This document shows, piece by piece, positions 121 to 48,398 of a DNA stretch of 48,398 nt. Each line of letters begins with the position of its first letter. The stretch's first letter is position 1. Made by a program: the position numbers and the translations under genes. The notes below the pieces were generated by a model. The model saw only the letters and a list, made by a program, of their open reading frames with translations, searched no databases and was not told the origin of the DNA. This stretch comes from Magnetococcales bacterium HCHbin5 (lineage in GTDB: Bacteria > Pseudomonadota > Magnetococcia > Magnetococcales > Magnetaquicoccaceae): the NCBI GenBank assembly GCA_002753505.1, contig PEAG01000020.1, forward strand, positions 1 to 48,398. The letters are read 5' to 3'.

Positions 121-222
121 TTAGCGCATATGGGGCTTTGCCCCTGCACCCCACCGGGGAGCGTGACGCTCCCCGGACCCCTGCAATTGTTTAACAGAAG
201 ACCGCAATCATGTTAGCGCACA
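121..222. repeat. Short-form mosaic repeat (one arm end only)
   Basis: A truncated copy of the window-wide repeat family holds two hairpins: GGGGC-TTT-GCCCC, and CGGGGAGCG paired with CGCTCCCCG. It ends in the family terminus CCCCTGCAATTGTTT. Unlike full copies, its inner end is joined to TAGCGCATATGGGG, and TGTTAGCGCA recurs on its other side near 213-222. The reverse complement of the same junction (CCCCATATGCGCTAACAT) appears near 14860 and 48207, so this is a defined shorter subtype. It lies between the partial left-edge gene and the 3' end of dnaB. Confidence 0.8.
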
Positions 223-7706: not shown

Positions 7707-8537
7707 ACCGGCACTGCCAAATCGTCACTGTCTAAACGATTGCAGGGGTCTGGGGAGCGTCACGCTCCCCAGCGGGGTGCAGGGGCAGAGCCCCTGCATG
7801 AACTGCGCGTTTTCCCAAAGCACATTTTCGCAGAAAATGTGCGCAACGCGCACAAAACCGCCCCAAAGGGGCGACCTTGGGAGGGCGGCAGCCCGACACG
7901 CACGGTTATCTCATCAACACGGCATGGACAGGAAAACAGCCGGTCGGATATTCAGTCTATCATCCCGGCAGGGCACTGCCAAACCGTCACAGCCTAAACG
8001 ATTGCAGGGGTCTGGGGAGCGTCACGCTCCCCAGCGGGGTGCAGGGGCAGAGCCCCTGCATGAACTGCGCGTTTTCCCAAAGCACATTTTCGCAGAAAAT
8101 GTGCGCAACGCGCACAAAACCGCCCCAAAGGGGCGACCTTGGGAGGGCGGCAGCCCGACACGCACGGTTATCTCATCAACACGGCATGGACAGGAAAACA
8201 GCCGGTCGGATATTCAGTCTATCATCCCGGCATGGCCAGAAAACGGCTTTGGTTCCAAACCATCATCCCGGCATGGCCAGAAAACGGCTTTGGTTCCAAA
8301 CCATCATCCCGGCATGGCCAGAAAACGGCTTTGGTTCCAAACCATTTCCTGCTTGGCCAATGTTTGGTCGGGCTGCCGCCCTCCAGGAGTGCCCCTGCGG
8401 GGCGTTTTGGGCGCGCTGCGCCCATTTGCTGCGCAAATGGGCTTCTGTGAAAGCGCGCCCGTTACATGCAGGGGCTTTGCCCCTGCACCCCACTGGGGAC
8501 CGTGACGGTCCCCAGGCCCCTGCAATTGTTTAGAAGC
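7707..8537. repeat. Mosaic palindromic repeat, expanded copy with duplicated left arm
   Basis: This is the largest repeat cluster and fills most of the divergent gap between nnrS and rsmE. The left arm (hairpins GGGGAGCGT/ACGCTCCCC, GCAGGGGC/GCCCCTGC, GCACATTTTC/GAAAATGTGC and GGGCGGCAGCCC) occurs twice in direct tandem, starting at 7737 and 7999, an offset of exactly 262 bases. A three-copy 41-bp repeat follows, and then a single right arm (about 8368-8535) with the inverted hairpin series. The right-arm version of the third hairpin is GCCCATTTGC/GCAAATGGGC (8420-8442). Open frames cross the element in several phases. I treat them as non-coding. Confidence 0.93.
8221..8343. repeat. 41-bp tandem repeat, three copies
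   Basis: Three head-to-tail copies begin with ATCATCCCGGCATGG at 8221, 8262 and 8303 and contain AAAACGGCTTTGGTTCC. They are identical as far as I can read. The array sits inside the repeat cluster, between the second left arm and the right arm, where other copies have a single-copy core. Confidence 0.95.
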
Positions 8538-14802: not shown

Positions 14803-15441
14803 ACGGTCATGGGGTCCAGGGGAGATTATCTCCCCTGGTGGGGTGCAGGGGCAGAGCCCCATATGCGCTAACATGATTGCGGTCTTCTTTTTAACGATTG
14901 CAGGGGTCCGGGGACCGTCACGGTCCCCGGCGGGGTGCAGGGGCGGAGCCCCTGCATGAATTGCGCGTTTTCCCAAAGCAAATTTTCGCAGAAAATTTGC
15001 GCAACGCGCACAAAACCGCCCCGCAGGGGCGACCTTGGGAGGGCGGCAGCCCGACTCGCACGGTTATGTCATGGAAAATGTTTGGACAAGAAAGCAGAAG
15101 GTTCGGATATTCAGTTTTTTTTCTGATACAAGGCCAGGAACGGTTTTTTCCCCGAACCGTCCCATGTTTGGCCAGCTCTCGGTCGGGCTGCCGCCCTCCA
15201 GCAGTGCCCCTGCGGGGCGTTTTGGGCGCGCTGCGCAAATTTCCTGCGGAAATTTGCTTCGGTGAAAGCGCGCCCGTTACATGCAGGGGCTTTGCCCCTG
15301 CACCCCACCGGGGAGCGTGACGCTCCCCGGACCCCTGCAATCGTTTAACAGCCACCGGGGAGCGTGACGCTCCCCGGACCCCTGCAATCGTTTAACAGCC
15401 ACCGGGGAGCGTGACGCTCCCCGGACCCCTGCAATCGTTTG
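14803..15441. repeat. Mosaic palindromic repeat: short form plus full copy plus terminal 47-bp tandem
   Basis: It fills the gap between two convergent genes. A short-form unit (14803-14895) carries a diverged but still paired hairpin, CCAGGGGAGAT/ATCTCCCCTGG, and the junction CCCCATATGCGCTAACAT. A full element follows from about 14896. Its third hairpin is GCAAATTTTC/GAAAATTTGC on the left (14978-15000) and GCAAATTTCC/GGAAATTTGC on the right (15235-15257). The right terminus (CCACCGGGGAGCG to CAATCGTTTAACAG) is present three times with a 47-base period, starting at 15305, 15352 and 15399. The cluster stops seven bases before the stop codon of the next gene. Confidence 0.93.
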
Positions 15442-21824: not shown

Positions 21825-22498
21825 GCAGGGGTCCGGGGACCGTCACGCTCCCCGGTGGGGTGCAGGGGCAAAGCCCCTGCATGCTTTTGAACGATTGCAG
21901 GGGTCCGGGGAGCGTCACGCTCCCCGGTGGGGTGCAGGGGCAAAGCCCCTGCATGAACGGCGCGTTTTCCCAAAGCACATTTTCGCAGAAAATGTGCGCA
22001 ACGCGCCCAAAACCTGCCCCGCAGGGGCAGACTCCTGGAGGGCGGCAGCCCGACGCGCACGGTTATGTTACGGAAAATGTTTGGATAAGAAAGCAGAAGG
22101 TTCGGACCTTCTGCTGGAGGGCGGCAGCCCGACGCGCACGGTTATGTTACGGAAAATGTTTGGATAAGAAAGCAGAAGGTTCGGACCTTCTGCTTTTTGT
22201 TTGACACAGGGCCAGGAACGGTTTTGCCGTCAGGCGTTTCAGGGAAGCCTCGTCCTCCTTCCAGGCTTTTTGTTTGACACAGGGCCAGGAACGGTTTTTC
22301 CCCCAAGCCATACCCAATTTGGCCAGCGTTCAGTCGGGCTGCCGCCCTCCAGGAGTGCCCCTGCGGGGCGTTTTGGGCGCGCTGCGCCCATTTGCTGCGC
22401 AAATGGGCTTACGAGAAAGCGCGCCCGTTACATGCAGGGGCTTTGCCCCTGCACCCCACTGGGGACCGTGACGGTCCCCAGGCCCCTGCAATAGTTTG
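21825..22498. repeat. Mosaic palindromic repeat with duplicated terminus and duplicated core
   Basis: Located between the convergent DsbA-like and sensor-kinase genes. The outer left terminus is present twice (21825 and about 21896). The first copy has one uncompensated stem mismatch (GGGGACCGT opposite ACGCTCCCC). The core is duplicated in two ways: CTGGAGGGCGGCAGCCC recurs at 22035 and 22114 (79-base period), and TTTTTGTTTGACACAGGG occurs twice near 22193 and 22267. The left third hairpin is GCACATTTTC/GAAAATGTGC (21975-21997). The right is GCCCATTTGC/GCAAATGGGC (22386-22408). Confidence 0.92.
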
Positions 22499-29023: not shown

Positions 29024-29192
29024 CGGTATTTTCACCTTTAAAGGGACAAGAGCATGGATCAAGACAGGAGAGGGATCGTGTCGCCAACCTCATCTTCCAT
29101 GGATCCACTCCCGGCGACGCTCCCCATCTGTCTCCACTCTACCTGTTCCAGGAATCTGCTGTCCAGTGTCTGGCCGTGAATTTGCCCAATAT

Positions 29193-29760
29193 CCCCGGTG
29201 GGGTGCAGGGGCAAAGCCCCTGCAAAGCTGTTAAACGATTGCAGGGGTCCGGGGAGCGTCACGCTCCCCGGTGGGGTGCAGGGGCAAAGCCCCTGCAAAG
29301 CTGTTAAACGATTGCAGGGGTCCGGGGAGCGTCACGCTCCCCGGTGGGGTGCAGGGGCAAAGCCCCTGCATGAATGGGCGCGCTTTCCCAAAAGCCCATT
29401 TGCGCAGCAAATGGGCGCAGCGCGCCCAAAACGCCCCGCAGGGGCACTCCTGGAGGGCGGCAGCCCGACCGAGAGCGGGCAAAATATGGGATGGCTTGGA
29501 AAAAAAACCGTTCCTGGTCTCATATCAAACAAAAAGCTGAATATCCGAACGTTCTGGTTTCTTATCCAAGCATTTTCCATGACATAACCGTGCGAGTCGG
29601 GCTGCCGCCCTCCCAAGGTCGCCCCTGCGGGGCGGCTTTGGGCGCGTTGCGCCCATTTTCTGCGAAAATGGGCTTTGGGAAAACGCGCCATTCAGCAGGG
29701 GCTTTGCCCCTGCACCCCACTGGGGAGCGTGACGCTCCCCAGACCCCTGCAATCGTTTAA
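29193..29760. repeat. Mosaic palindromic repeat, inverted orientation, with 73-bp terminal duplication
   Basis: The element lies in the divergent gap upstream of the glycosyltransferase and DUF47 genes. The terminus unit (TGCAAAGCTGTTAAACGATT) starts at 29221 and 29294, a 73-base period. Orientation is opposite to the 15-kb copy: the GCCCATTTGC/GCAAATGGGC hairpin (29394-29416) comes first. The other arm has yet another stem, GCCCATTTTC/GAAAATGGGC (29651-29673), and its enclosing stem is GGCGCGTT/AACGCGCC. The sequence 29761-29913 between repeat and Pho box is AT-rich with no gene. 29024-29192 also holds none. Confidence 0.92.
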
Positions 29761-35501: not shown

Positions 35502-35514
35502 GTCAAGCTGTTCT

Positions 35515-36116
35515 GCAGGGGTCCGGGGAGCGTCACGCTCCCCATTTTTTTTGCTCTTTTAAACGATTGCAGGGGTCCGGGGAGCATCACGCTCCCCATT
35601 TTTTTTGCTCTTTTAAACGATTGCAGGGGTCCGGGGAGCGTCACGCTCCCCGGTGGGGTGCAGGGGCAAAGCCCCTGCATGAACGGCGCGTTTTCCCAAA
35701 GCAAATTTTCGCAGAAAATTTGCGCAACGCGCCCAAAGCCGCCCCGCAGGGGCGACCTTGGGAGGGCGGCAGCCCGACGCGCACGGTTATGTCATGGAAA
35801 ATGTTTGGATAAGAAAGCAGAAGGTTCGGATATTACGCTTTATTCGCTTTAAACATGAGGCCAGGAACGGTTTTTTTTCCAAGCCATACCCAATCTGGCC
35901 CGCTCTCGGTCGGGCTGCCGCCCTCCAGCAGTGCCCCTGCGGGGCGTTTTGGGCGCGCTGCGCCCATTTGCTGCGCAAATGGGCTTTTGGGAAAGCGCGC
36001 CCGTACATGCAGGGGCTTTGCCCCTGCACCCCACCGGGGACCGTGACGGTCCCCGGACCCCTGCAATCGTTTTTTGAACGATTAAACCTGCAACCGTTTT
36101 TTGAACGATTAAAACG
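35515..36116. repeat. Mosaic palindromic repeat with 54-bp terminal triplication and 27-bp end duplication
   Basis: It lies between the convergent rhodanese and J-domain genes. The outer terminus starting GCAGGGGTCC occurs at 35515, 35569 and 35623 (54-base period). The first two copies are truncated right after the first hairpin and joined to a T-rich spacer, and the second copy has one mismatch in the stem (GGGGAGCAT). The third hairpin is GCAAATTTTC/GAAAATTTGC (35701-35723) on the left and GCCCATTTGC/GCAAATGGGC (35962-35984) on the right. Beyond the right terminus, CTGCAA-CGTTTTTTGAACG is repeated with a 27-base offset (36061 and 36088). Confidence 0.93.
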
Positions 36117-39331: not shown

Positions 39332-39796
39332 ATGAAAAGCTGGCTGCAAAGAGTGTGGGTTAGAGGGTTCAACCTGGTGTTGGGGCCGACGCGGGCGGGC
39401 TACCATGAGCGGGCGGGCCAGGCCTTTCGCCATCAAAACGGTCAACGTCCGGAAGTCACCACCACGCGCAGCGGTTTGCAGTGGGAGGTGTTGCGGGCGA
39501 CTGAGGGGCCAAAGCCGGGTTTTTCCAGCAGGGTGGTGGTGCACTATCGGGGAACCCTGGTCAATGGGGTGGAGTTTGACAGCTCTTACAGGCGGCGGGA
39601 GCCCATCGCTTTCAGTCTGTTGGAGGTGATCTCCGGCTGGCGCGAGGGGTTGCAGTTGATGTCGATTGGCAGCCAATACCGTTTTGTCATTCCCCCGGAC
39701 AGTGCCTATGGCGAGGGGGGAGCGGGATTATTGATTGCGCCGCGTTCCACCCTGATTTTTGAGGTGGAGTTGCTGGAGATTGTCGCCAGTCGCTAG
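39332..39796 (+). CDS. FKBP-type peptidyl-prolyl cis-trans isomerase
   Basis: A 154-residue protein. The N-terminal 45 residues are basic/aromatic without a clear signal peptide (MKSWLQRVWVRGFNLVLGPT). The FKBP domain occupies the rest: SRVVVHYRGTLVNGVEFDSS, then FSLLEVISGWREGLQLMSIG, YRFVIPPDSAYGEGGAG and the final strand TLIFEVELLEI. The aromatic pocket residues Tyr, Phe-Asp, Val-Ile and Trp are in place, so isomerase activity is expected. GGAGG lies six bases before ATG 39332, which decides the start over an upstream in-frame ATG at 39251. Confidence 0.92.
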   Translation: MKSWLQRVWVRGFNLVLGPTRAGYHERAGQAFRHQNGQRPEVTTTRSGLQWEVLRATEGPKPGFSSRVVVHYRGTLVNGVEFDSSYRRREPIAFSLLEVISGWREGLQLMSIGSQYRFVIPPDSAYGEGGAGLLIAPRSTLIFEVELLEIVASR

Positions 39797-39814: not shown

Positions 39815-40261
39815 TGATTGCAGGGGTCCGGGGACCGTCACGGTCCCCGGTGGGGTGCAGGGGCAAAGCCCCTGCATGAAATGCGCGTTTTCCCCAAGCC
39901 AATTTTCGCAGAAAATTGGCGCAACGCGCCCAAAACCGCCCCGCAGGGGCGACCTTGGGAGGGCGGCAGCCCGACTCGCACGGTTATGTTACGGAAAATG
40001 TTTGGATAAGAAACCAGAACTTGTGGATGTGCAGATTTTTGTTTGACACAAGGCCAGGAGGGTTTTTTCTCCAAGCCATACCCCATTTGGCCAGCTCTCG
40101 GTCGGGCTGCCGCCCTCCAGCAGTGCCCCTGCGGGGCGTTTTGGGCGCGCTGCGCCCATTTGCTGCGCAAATGGGCTTTTGGGAAAGCGCGCCCGTACAT
40201 GCAGGGGCTTTGCCCCTGCACCCCACCGGGGAGCGTGACGCTCCCCGGACCCCTGCAATTG
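39815..40261. repeat. Mosaic palindromic repeat, complete single copy (type example)
   Basis: At 447 bp this is the cleanest full copy, without tandem expansions. Left arm (39815-39975): hairpins GGGGACCGT/ACGGTCCCC, GCAGGGGC/GCCCCTGC, GCCAATTTTC/GAAAATTGGC (39898-39920), GCCCC/GGGGC and GGGC/GCCC. Core: 39976-40100. Right arm: the same series inverted, third hairpin GCCCATTTGC/GCAAATGGGC (40154-40176). The ends are TGATTGCAGGGG and CCCCTGCAATTG. It lies between convergent genes and its last base directly precedes the minus-strand stop codon of the GAF-domain gene. Confidence 0.95.
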
Positions 40262-41584
40262 TCACGGCAACATCTTGAGCAGATCCAAAAAATTGACCGG
40301 CGGCAACAGCAAATACATGTTAACCCCCAGAGAAAACAATAACGAAGCCAACAACACAGCCAACGCACCCCTGGCCAATCCACTCATTCTCTGCGCCCGA
40401 CCGGATAATATTTCGGAAAAATCCATCATCTCCTGCCGCAACGAAACATTTTCCACCGCCAGTTGCAGATGCAAAGCCACCCGTTCCAGCAACAACCGAT
40501 CCTTCTCTTCAAAACAACGACGCCCTTTGGTGTTCATGACCAGGATCACCCCGGCAACATGACGACCCACAACCCCCTTGATAGGCACCAACAGCGCATT
40601 TCTGGCCTGCCTGGTCCCGCAAACGGGTGCATCCGCCCCATAGGTGGTCGCCCACTCCCGTACCACGTACTCCCCGCTCTCAATCACCTCCATCACCAGC
40701 GGGTGCAACCCACAAGCCATGAACTCCGCCCCCGTCATGCCGGAACTGTTCAACAACCAGGCATCCAGATTGTCCCGATCGGCAAGAAAAATATTGCACC
40801 ACTCCACGTTCAGGGTTGTGCGCATCATTTGAACAAACAGATCCACCAGATCCATGTTGCCCCGATAGCTCCAGGCCCGGGTCACAATGCGCTGCCGCAG
40901 GCGCAACTGGTCGTGCAAATGGTAAATATCCTTCTCCAGCTTGCCCCGGGCTCGCACCATTCCGACCGGATCATCCGGTGATGTTTCATCGCGAATCCGC
41001 TTGGGCGGTCCATCCGCCGACTCCCGCAGATAGACATTCATGCCACTCTGGTGAAAATAGAGTGCCACCGTGCTGTAAAAGCTCAACTCCGCCTCCACCT
41101 GCCGCAGCTTTAACGCTGCGTCTACTGGGTGGGTTCCCTTTTTGGCCCGTTCCATGCGCCGCTCAAACAATACTGCCGCCGGCGGCAATAAAAATTCAAA
41201 AACCAGCTTGCTGCGAAAGTTGCCCCTGAACAGGCCCGCATCGGGAGGAGGCAGTGGAATGCGAAAAAGATCCAGTTCCAAATATTCAATATCATCCAGA
41301 CTTTCCACATCATAAACGGGCGTGGCCTTCTCGAACCCCACAAAGGGCAGCCCCATGTGCAGCTCTCTGGGACGATGGGCCATCATTCGGGAGTGCCACC
41401 AGCCCCGCATGGAAATATCCAAATAGCCCTCCTCAGGCCACCCCCCCAGTTGACGCAAAATGGTCGTCTTGCCGGAGCCGGGCGGGCCCGTGAGAATCAG
41501 TTGCCCCGGACGAACCCCTTCAGGCAACAAAACGCCGTTATGGCTGAAGGTCTGGGCAACCTCCTGGAGTACCAACCGTTCCAT
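40262..41584 (-). CDS. P-loop NTPase-like protein with GAF domain and C-terminal TM helix
   Basis: A 440-residue protein. Residues 29-41 hold Walker A (LILTGPPGSGKTT). The block LDISMRGWWHSRMMAHRPRE, then LHMGLPF and KLVFEFLLPPAAVLFERR, is shared with the J-domain protein at 36129-37067, so the two are paralogues. Residues about 240-390 form a GAF sensory domain (TLNVEWCNIFLADRDNLDAW; ALLVPIKGVVGRHVAGVILV). A single TM helix lies near the C-terminus (ALAVLLASLLFSLGVNMYLLL). This suggests a membrane-tethered, ligand-sensing NTPase of unknown output. ATG 41584 has GAGG seven bases upstream. Its promoter region 41585-41789 is AT-rich with one small hairpin near 41674. Confidence 0.72.
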   Translation of the reverse strand: MERLVLQEVAQTFSHNGVLLPEGVRPGQLILTGPPGSGKTTILRQLGGWPEEGYLDISMRGWWHSRMMAHRPRELHMGLPFVGFEKATPVYDVESLDDIEYLELDLFRIPLPPPDAGLFRGNFRSKLVFEFLLPPAAVLFERRMERAKKGTHPVDAALKLRQVEAELSFYSTVALYFHQSGMNVYLRESADGPPKRIRDETSPDDPVGMVRARGKLEKDIYHLHDQLRLRQRIVTRAWSYRGNMDLVDLFVQMMRTTLNVEWCNIFLADRDNLDAWLLNSSGMTGAEFMACGLHPLVMEVIESGEYVVREWATTYGADAPVCGTRQARNALLVPIKGVVGRHVAGVILVMNTKGRRCFEEKDRLLLERVALHLQLAVENVSLRQEMMDFSEILSGRAQRMSGLARGALAVLLASLLFSLGVNMYLLLPPVNFLDLLKMLP

Positions 41585-41789: not shown

Positions 41790-42309
41790 CAATTGCAGGG
41801 GTCCGGGGAGCGTCACGCTCCCCGGTGGGGTGCAGGGGCAAAGCCCCTGCATGAACTGCGCGTTTTCCCAAAGCAAATTTTCGCAGAAAATTTGCGCAAC
41901 GCGCACAAAACCGCCCCGCAGGGGCGACCTTGGGAGGGCGGCAGCCCGACTCGCACGGTTATGCCGTTGAAAATATTTGGATAAAAAACCAGAACCTTCG
42001 GATTGTCAGCTTTTTGGTTTGATACAAGGCCAGGAACGGTTTTTTTTCCAAGCCACGCCCAATTTGGCCAGCTCTCAGTCGGGCTGCCGCCCTCCAGCAG
42101 TGCCCCTGCGGGGCGTTTTGGGCGCGCTGCGCCCATTTGCTGCGCAAATGGGCTTCGGTGAAAGCGCGCCCGTTACATGCAGGGGCTTTGCCCCTGCACC
42201 CCACCGGGGAGCGTGACGCTCCCCGGACCCCTGCAATCGTTTTAAAAGATTAAGAAAAGAAAGCGCGCCCCTGCACCCCACCGGGGAGCGTGACGCTCCC
42301 CGGACCCCG
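41790..42309. repeat. Mosaic palindromic repeat: full copy plus partial copy lacking one hairpin
   Basis: Full element 41790-42244 with third hairpins GCAAATTTTC/GAAAATTTGC (41873-41895) and GCCCATTTGC/GCAAATGGGC (42131-42153). A second right terminus (42260-42309) follows after a 15-base gap. It reads GAAAGCGCGCCCCTGCACCC: compared with full copies, the GCAGGGGC/GCCCCTGC hairpin has been removed between runs of C, as replication slippage would do. The element separates the GAF-domain gene from the ATP-citrate lyase terminator. Confidence 0.93.
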
Positions 42310-48131: not shown

Positions 48132-48398
48132 GGATTGCAGGGGGCTGGAGCGGGTGCAGGGGCCTGGAGACCGTCACGGTCCCCAGTGGGGTGCAGGGGC
48201 GGAGCCCATATGCGCTAACATAATGACGATACCCTTTATTCTGTCAATCTTTTAAAACGATTGCAGGGGCCTGGGGACCGTCACGGTCCCCAGTGGGGTG
48301 CAGGGGCAAAGCCCCTGCATGTAACGGGCGCGCTTTCCCAAAAGCCCATTTGCGCAGCAAATGGGCGCAGCGCGCCCAAAACGCCCCGCAGGGGCACT
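48132..48398. repeat. Mosaic palindromic repeat: short form plus start of a full copy cut by the window edge
   Basis: A short-form unit (to about 48220) shows the GTGCAGGGG terminus, a first hairpin with one mismatch (GGAGACCGT opposite ACGGTCCCC) and the junction CCCATATGCGCTAACAT. From about 48259 a further copy begins in the inverted orientation, with CTGGGGACC/GGTCCCCAG, GCAGGGGC/GCCCCTGC and the third hairpin GCCCATTTGC/GCAAATGGGC (48354-48376). The window ends inside this arm. Confidence 0.9.

Follow-up and report, generated by a model that had tools for sequence, protein, structure and literature searches.

What keeps the small hairpins of a dispersed, protein-free repeat paired as their stem sequences change? 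The question is raised by an element in a Magnetococcales genome (4.19 Mb in 200 contigs), lying between two convergent genes, one for an FKBP-type isomerase (stop at 39796) and the other for a GAF-domain protein (stop at 40262), in the window, that is, the 48,398-nucleotide stretch of DNA analysed here. An initial annotation had described an element with two inverted arms, and the stems lie where it placed them: the ends (39817–39878 and 40198–40259) are 97% complementary, and each arm of this reference copy, approximately 160 bp long, consists of five local hairpins (H1 to H5 on the left, H5' to H1' on the right; Table 1), the arms enclosing an asymmetric core of about 125 bp. That the element is non-autonomous and mosaic, and that either a structure or a copying process constrains it, was also correctly anticipated. 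We propose that it is an intergenic hairpin repeat of the REP/BIME/REPIN type, mosaic and non-autonomous, that is specific to a Magnetococcales lineage and is kept as paired hairpins in DNA, a reading that we think probable, with appreciable room for doubt.

Table 1. Parts of the reference element and other copies of the repeat in the window.
Feature	Position	Strand	Description
Reference copy (left arm, core, right arm)	39817–40259	+	between convergent FKBP and GAF-domain genes
Left H1	39828–39850	+	11-bp stem, 1-base loop; covarying pairs 39829-39849 and 39835-39843
Left H2	39856–39876	+	9-bp stem, 3-base loop
Outer stem around left H3 (GCGCGTT/AACGCGC)	39883–39929	+	nearly invariant
Left H3	39898–39920	+	10-bp stem, GCA loop; four stem alleles, all paired
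Left H4	39938–39950	+	5-bp stem, invariant
Left H5	39961–39972	+	4-bp stem, invariant
Core	39977–40099	+	asymmetric; most variable part of the element
Right-arm hairpins H5', H4', H3', H2', H1'	40104–40248	+	mirror order
Right-arm H3'	40154–40176	+	
Right-arm H2'	40200–40220	+	
Right-arm H1'	40226–40248	+	
Solo end module (H2'/H1')	132–190	+	
Copy	7735–8529	+	tandem duplication of left part (262 bp x2); core with an additional array (41 bp x3)
Copy	14893–15440	+	tandem array of right end and flank (47 bp x2.9, 100%); H1 module at 14816 is diverged
Copy	21888–22495	+	contains 79-bp perfect tandem duplication
Copy	29192–29757	-	73 bp x2.5 end array
Copy	35514–36113	+	an array at each end (54 bp x2.6; 27 bp x2)
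Full copy	41792–42240	+	
Arm	48256–48398	-	cut by contig end

The window holds eight full or contig-cut elements and one solo end module, in agreement with the nine loci counted initially. The third hairpin occurs in it 16 times rather than the 17 first reported, and the six stems listed for it are all perfectly paired around a 3-base loop. The alternation described for the first hairpin was recovered, including the diverged yet paired copy at 14816 (CCAGGGGAGAT T ATCTCCCCTGG), while covariation claimed for the stem enclosing H3 is confined to a single pair, 39882–39930 (G-C in 33 of 71 aligned full copies, T-A in 30, mismatched in 8), the remainder of that stem being nearly invariant. Arms and end modules often occur on their own. 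Tandem duplications of 27–262 bp, perfect or nearly so (7710–8345, 15305–15440, 22035–22194, 29192–29370, 35514–35651 and 36060–36113), sit at or in the hairpin elements of the window, several including flanking DNA. Counting arrays with a period of 20 or more and units at least 90% alike, 38 of 88 copies have one that lies across the element itself or its ends, the unit often taking in flanking sequence, and no tandem arrays were found in the remaining flanks of the 88. A recurring linker, GTTTTAAAAGATTAGAAAAAGCATGGGTATGGTCATCATGTTAGCGCATATGGGG, which is itself part of the mosaic, joins nested end modules (flanks of L033, L034, L115 and L141).

A 25-base core pattern, CGGTTATGTTACGGAAAATGTTTGG, has at least 113 matches in the genome at up to three mismatches, split 57/56 between the strands, compared to none for the reversed pattern; 113 is a lower bound because copies stand at the ends of many contigs. 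A covariance model built for the arm (R1; 159 positions, 48 pairs) matches all 18 genomes of the host's Magnetococcales family, with 5 to at least 150 matches per genome, and more weakly 43 of the 48 genomes of the class. Since the matches outside the family may in part be generic GC-rich hairpins, we claim occurrence for the host's own family only. Same-genus records with the repeat are Magnetococcales MAGs. Relatives share the arm order H5-H4-H3-H2-H1 and keep the same architecture with other paired stems, and their cores differ; outside the family, one genome (G031, L233) has the same layout of outer stem and H3 with a different stem. The bin nWRX3bin10, from another Magnetococcales family (L231, the same as G036:C18, and L176), has a genus-like arm on a 6.2-kb contig (E = 9e-27), reflecting transfer or mis-binning, and one isolated match to the pattern, in Pantoea sp. 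WMus005 (L192), is probably due to chance. Some relatives carry an extra core hairpin (L066:1716, L069:1420, L163:1882, L165:2177, L250:2031) with a conserved inner TTGGCGC/GCGCCAA and a copy-specific, perfectly paired outer stem; in a second species, 14 of 17 such hairpins are perfect across nine outer pairs and 3 have a single A-C mismatch, one spurious regex match being left out of the count. No Rfam family matches the element above its gathering score, phage and plasmid collections contain no match to it, and we found no description of it in the literature on Magnetococcales repeats. The initial statement that it fits no named family is thus true of its exact sequence, but its kind, that of REP, BIME and REPIN, is known.

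Genome-wide, 230 of the 231 third hairpins examined are perfectly paired. Over 94 pairs in the 71 aligned full copies, 6624 cells are Watson-Crick, 6 are G-U, 10 A-C and 6 other, and arm columns are mostly more than 97% invariant. Left H3 has two variable pairs, found in all four combinations (AA 36, CC 21, CA 8, AC 6) and always paired. Ten alternative paired states are present in 33, 29, 27, 19, 16, 13, 9, 9, 7 and 1 copies, and 21 mismatched states in only one or two copies each; alternative states at high copy number are always paired. The pair 40162–40168 of right H3 is C-G in 7 copies, C-A in 1 and T-A in 1, a single stepwise trace which shows that a mismatched intermediate does occur. 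Private changes per site amount to 0.106 at paired arm sites, 0.25 at unpaired arm sites and 0.455 in the core (p = 0.003 and 2e-9), differences that may owe something to base composition and to exchange between arms.

The covariation noted initially exceeds chance expectation. Its score was never reached by shuffles (0 of 500) in either the genus-wide alignment or that of the second species (52 arms), and sliding the structure along these alignments lowered the paired fraction to 35–51%. Linkage, which served as a control for relatedness among copies, does not explain it, because r2 is 0.86–1.0 within base pairs 5–20 bp apart and approximately 0.1 for other sites at such distances (non-paired site pairs: 0.28 at up to 5 bp, 0.09 at 11–20 bp and 0.017 beyond 80 bp). 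Copies within one genome are not independent, and independent double changes are therefore few (about ten states). In the second species (G002), both partners have changed in 34 of the 48 pairs (212 cells), compared to about six one-sided G-U cells, and H3 stems of differing lengths are each still paired. It is the local hairpins that are kept rather than the long duplex between the arms, as the initial annotation had argued: at variable sites the former are 99.1% paired and the latter 38.8%, and the alleles of left and right H1 are uncorrelated (r2 0.03 and 0.0001). For the whole element as a single strand, the most stable predicted fold is the long arm-to-arm duplex.

Copies sit at the 3' ends of genes. 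Among the 77 with genes called on both sides by an ad hoc codon model, 39 occupy convergent intervals, 29 are co-oriented in tandem intervals, 7 are anti-oriented and 2 lie between divergent genes, with none inside a gene; the window background comprises 6 convergent, 20 tandem and 6 divergent intervals (p = 0.003 for convergent, 0.008 for divergent and 0.0003 for 29:7). The site downstream of the FKBP orthologue is empty in two relatives (G003, G001) and is occupied by other hairpin elements in two more (G002, G006).

These positions, convergent and co-oriented, and in particular the bias of 29 to 7 along the upstream gene, could also reflect a role in RNA, the host selecting a 3'-UTR, terminator or RNA-stabilising structure on the + strand of the element. 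Such a role is consistent with the folding of the arm as RNA into five hairpins (z = -5.2) and with the lower load of private mutations at paired sites. However, G-U is almost absent, with 6 of some 6650 cells in the home genome, where A-C is at least as common, and 6 of the 2244 cells of a relative, compared to 5.7% G-U and no A-C in a small control sample of five tRNAs from the same loci. Changes between alternative pairs are mostly transversions (13 compared to 4 transitions, both sides counted; 18 and 21 in the core), and at the element there is no promoter, no excess of terminators over shuffles and no Rfam family. Three traits of a structured RNA, namely G-U tolerance, transition-type covariation and an Rfam match, are thus not seen in the element; the initial suggestion of structural selection is not supported in its RNA version, and we consider a host-selected RNA distinctly unlikely. 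The lack of G-U, together with three right-arm H3 loops that are exact inversions (GCA for TGC) within unaltered stems and flanks and the tandem duplications at the ends, points to DNA hairpins, and what is preserved is probably hairpin DNA, not RNA.

Template switching in hairpins has been described as leaving inverted loops as its footprint (PMC8794818, PMC8604942). Pairing might thus be kept without selection, replication copying one side of a hairpin onto the other by template switching (quasi-palindrome correction). The three inverted loops would be expected under this process, as would the coupled stem-length variants in G002 and the near absence of one-sided intermediates, but among the 71 copies private paired changes are rare (one) and private mismatches more frequent (about 20). 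The near invariance of the outer stem, H4 and H5, and the absence of inverted H1, H2 or H4 loops from the 71 copies, indicate that sequence is constrained too, and we think it unlikely that switching maintains pairing unaided. A related proposal, that H3 and the extra core hairpin of relatives are continually rewritten by hairpin template switching, DNA alone giving RNA-like covariation, is tentative and in our view somewhat improbable; if true, the conserved outer stem would frame a fast-changing cassette that is always self-complementary. Inverted ends of approximately 160 bp around a variable core, numerous copies, and filled and empty orthologous sites would also suit a DDE-transposon MITE whose terminal inverted repeats are long and structured and which is moved by an insertion sequence at another place in the genome. 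This is highly improbable: target duplication is not above that of shuffled flanks (4.54 compared to 4.21–4.67), the arms vary independently whereas agreement would be expected of terminal repeats that are bound in pairs, lone arms and end modules abound, and an unsystematic look through the draft genome revealed no parent transposon.

Under our preferred reading, a repeat kept as paired DNA hairpins, copies would be gained at the 3' ends of genes and their ends amplified in tandem, and the feature maintained would be the paired state of the individual small hairpins in DNA, whether single-stranded or extruded, and not the arm-to-arm duplex. Paired stems may change on both sides in a coupled event, by hairpin template switching, or by way of rare intermediates with a mismatch, changed stems would spread since only well-paired copies are multiplied, and short exchanges would shuffle stems between copies. 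A hairpin-recognising single-strand nuclease (Y1/HUH, RAYT-like) may be the mobiliser; we linked no specific enzyme to the repeat. The only Y1 transposase gene of the genome encodes a RAYT-like protein of 224 amino acids, with a best RAYT model score of 72.6 (below the cut-off of 80), and the 6-kb contig carrying it has no copy of the repeat, thus no flanking inverted pair. Presence of the repeat does not track that of a Y1 transposase across genomes, three near-complete relatives with 97 (G006), 33 (G007) and 51 (G032) arm matches having no Y1 match. The RAYT-type genes of G003 and G005 adjoin other hairpins (ACCACCCGCTACGCGGGTGGT; CTGGGGAGGCGGAGAACCGCCTCCCCAG; L150 at approximately 1920–1997, L157 at approximately 3181 and L159 at approximately 2027), apparently separate REP families. 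A RAYT acting in cis was rejected as mobiliser, as none flanks the repeat and those of G003 and G005 have different hairpins of their own. From the lone Y1 gene away from the repeat, the relatives that have none and the RAYTs with other hairpins, it follows that a trans-acting HUH enzyme is possible, though unproven.

Strong compensatory covariation is ordinarily taken to prove a functional RNA. In this case it is found in a dispersed repeat, almost without wobble and accompanied by signs of hairpin activity at the DNA level, which calls for caution. With hundreds of arms per genome in several species, in paired, mismatched and loop-inverted states, the repeat is a resource for measuring how palindromes stay perfect, by selection for mobility or by template switching. 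It also adds Magnetococcales to the range of REP/BIME-like elements, here in the form of a larger, multi-hairpin unit, and leads one to ask whether any enzyme moves it and, if so, which.

A REP is a GC-rich palindrome headed by a GTAG-type motif; REPs are often arranged in BIMEs, and stem variants and tandem clusters with flanking DNA have been described for them (PMC3733652). Inverted REPs flank RAYT genes (PMC2817692), and compensatory stem changes have been reported for REPs and REPINs (PMC3116915, PMC2817692). The Magnetococcales element resembles REPs as a GC-rich palindrome with a short interruption of 2–4 bases and more than 100 extragenic copies, and resembles BIMEs in its inverted hairpin pairs, in its mosaic arrays that recur in tandem together with flanking DNA and in stem variants that stay paired (PMC3733652, PMC2817692). 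It differs from both in having five different hairpins per arm within a 450-bp unit, no consistent GTAG or CGTC head and no RAYT gene flanked by the repeat. GTAG and CTAC are absent from the reference copy and from 80 of 88 copies; GTGG lies 2 nt upstream of left H2 in 55 of 71 copies and GCGG in 16, while over 142 arms the motif two bases before H2 is GTGG in 122 and GCGG in 19 (mostly GCGG in G002, judged by eye). Because this result on the head is unclear and no flanking RAYT was found, we do not file the element as a REP.

REPINs of Pseudomonas fluorescens SBW25 are likewise replicating units of inverted hairpin ends and a spacer in which compensatory changes are common (PMC3116915). There the changes span a predicted long hairpin, whereas here they fall inside each small hairpin and the arms vary independently, so that the inverted doublet forming a long, compensated hairpin is not seen (38.8% at variable sites). 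Like bacterial MITEs (reviewed in PMC10969869), the repeat is non-autonomous and dispersed, has inverted ends and is gained at intergenic sites, but it differs from them in the absence of a target duplication signal and of a parent transposase in our unsystematic look. The short palindromic repeats of Volvox organelles (PMC2670323) similarly form dense intergenic families of nested hairpins with 3–5-nt loops, although they are organellar and shorter and have no fixed five-hairpin arm. Hairpins maintained by template switching (PMC8794818) share the coupled stem changes and the occasional exact loop inversion, but were described for rRNA genes and not for a dispersed repeat. REP/BIME/REPIN is the closest known kind, and the element, which works and is organised like a BIME or REPIN, is best placed as a variant within it, not as something categorically different.
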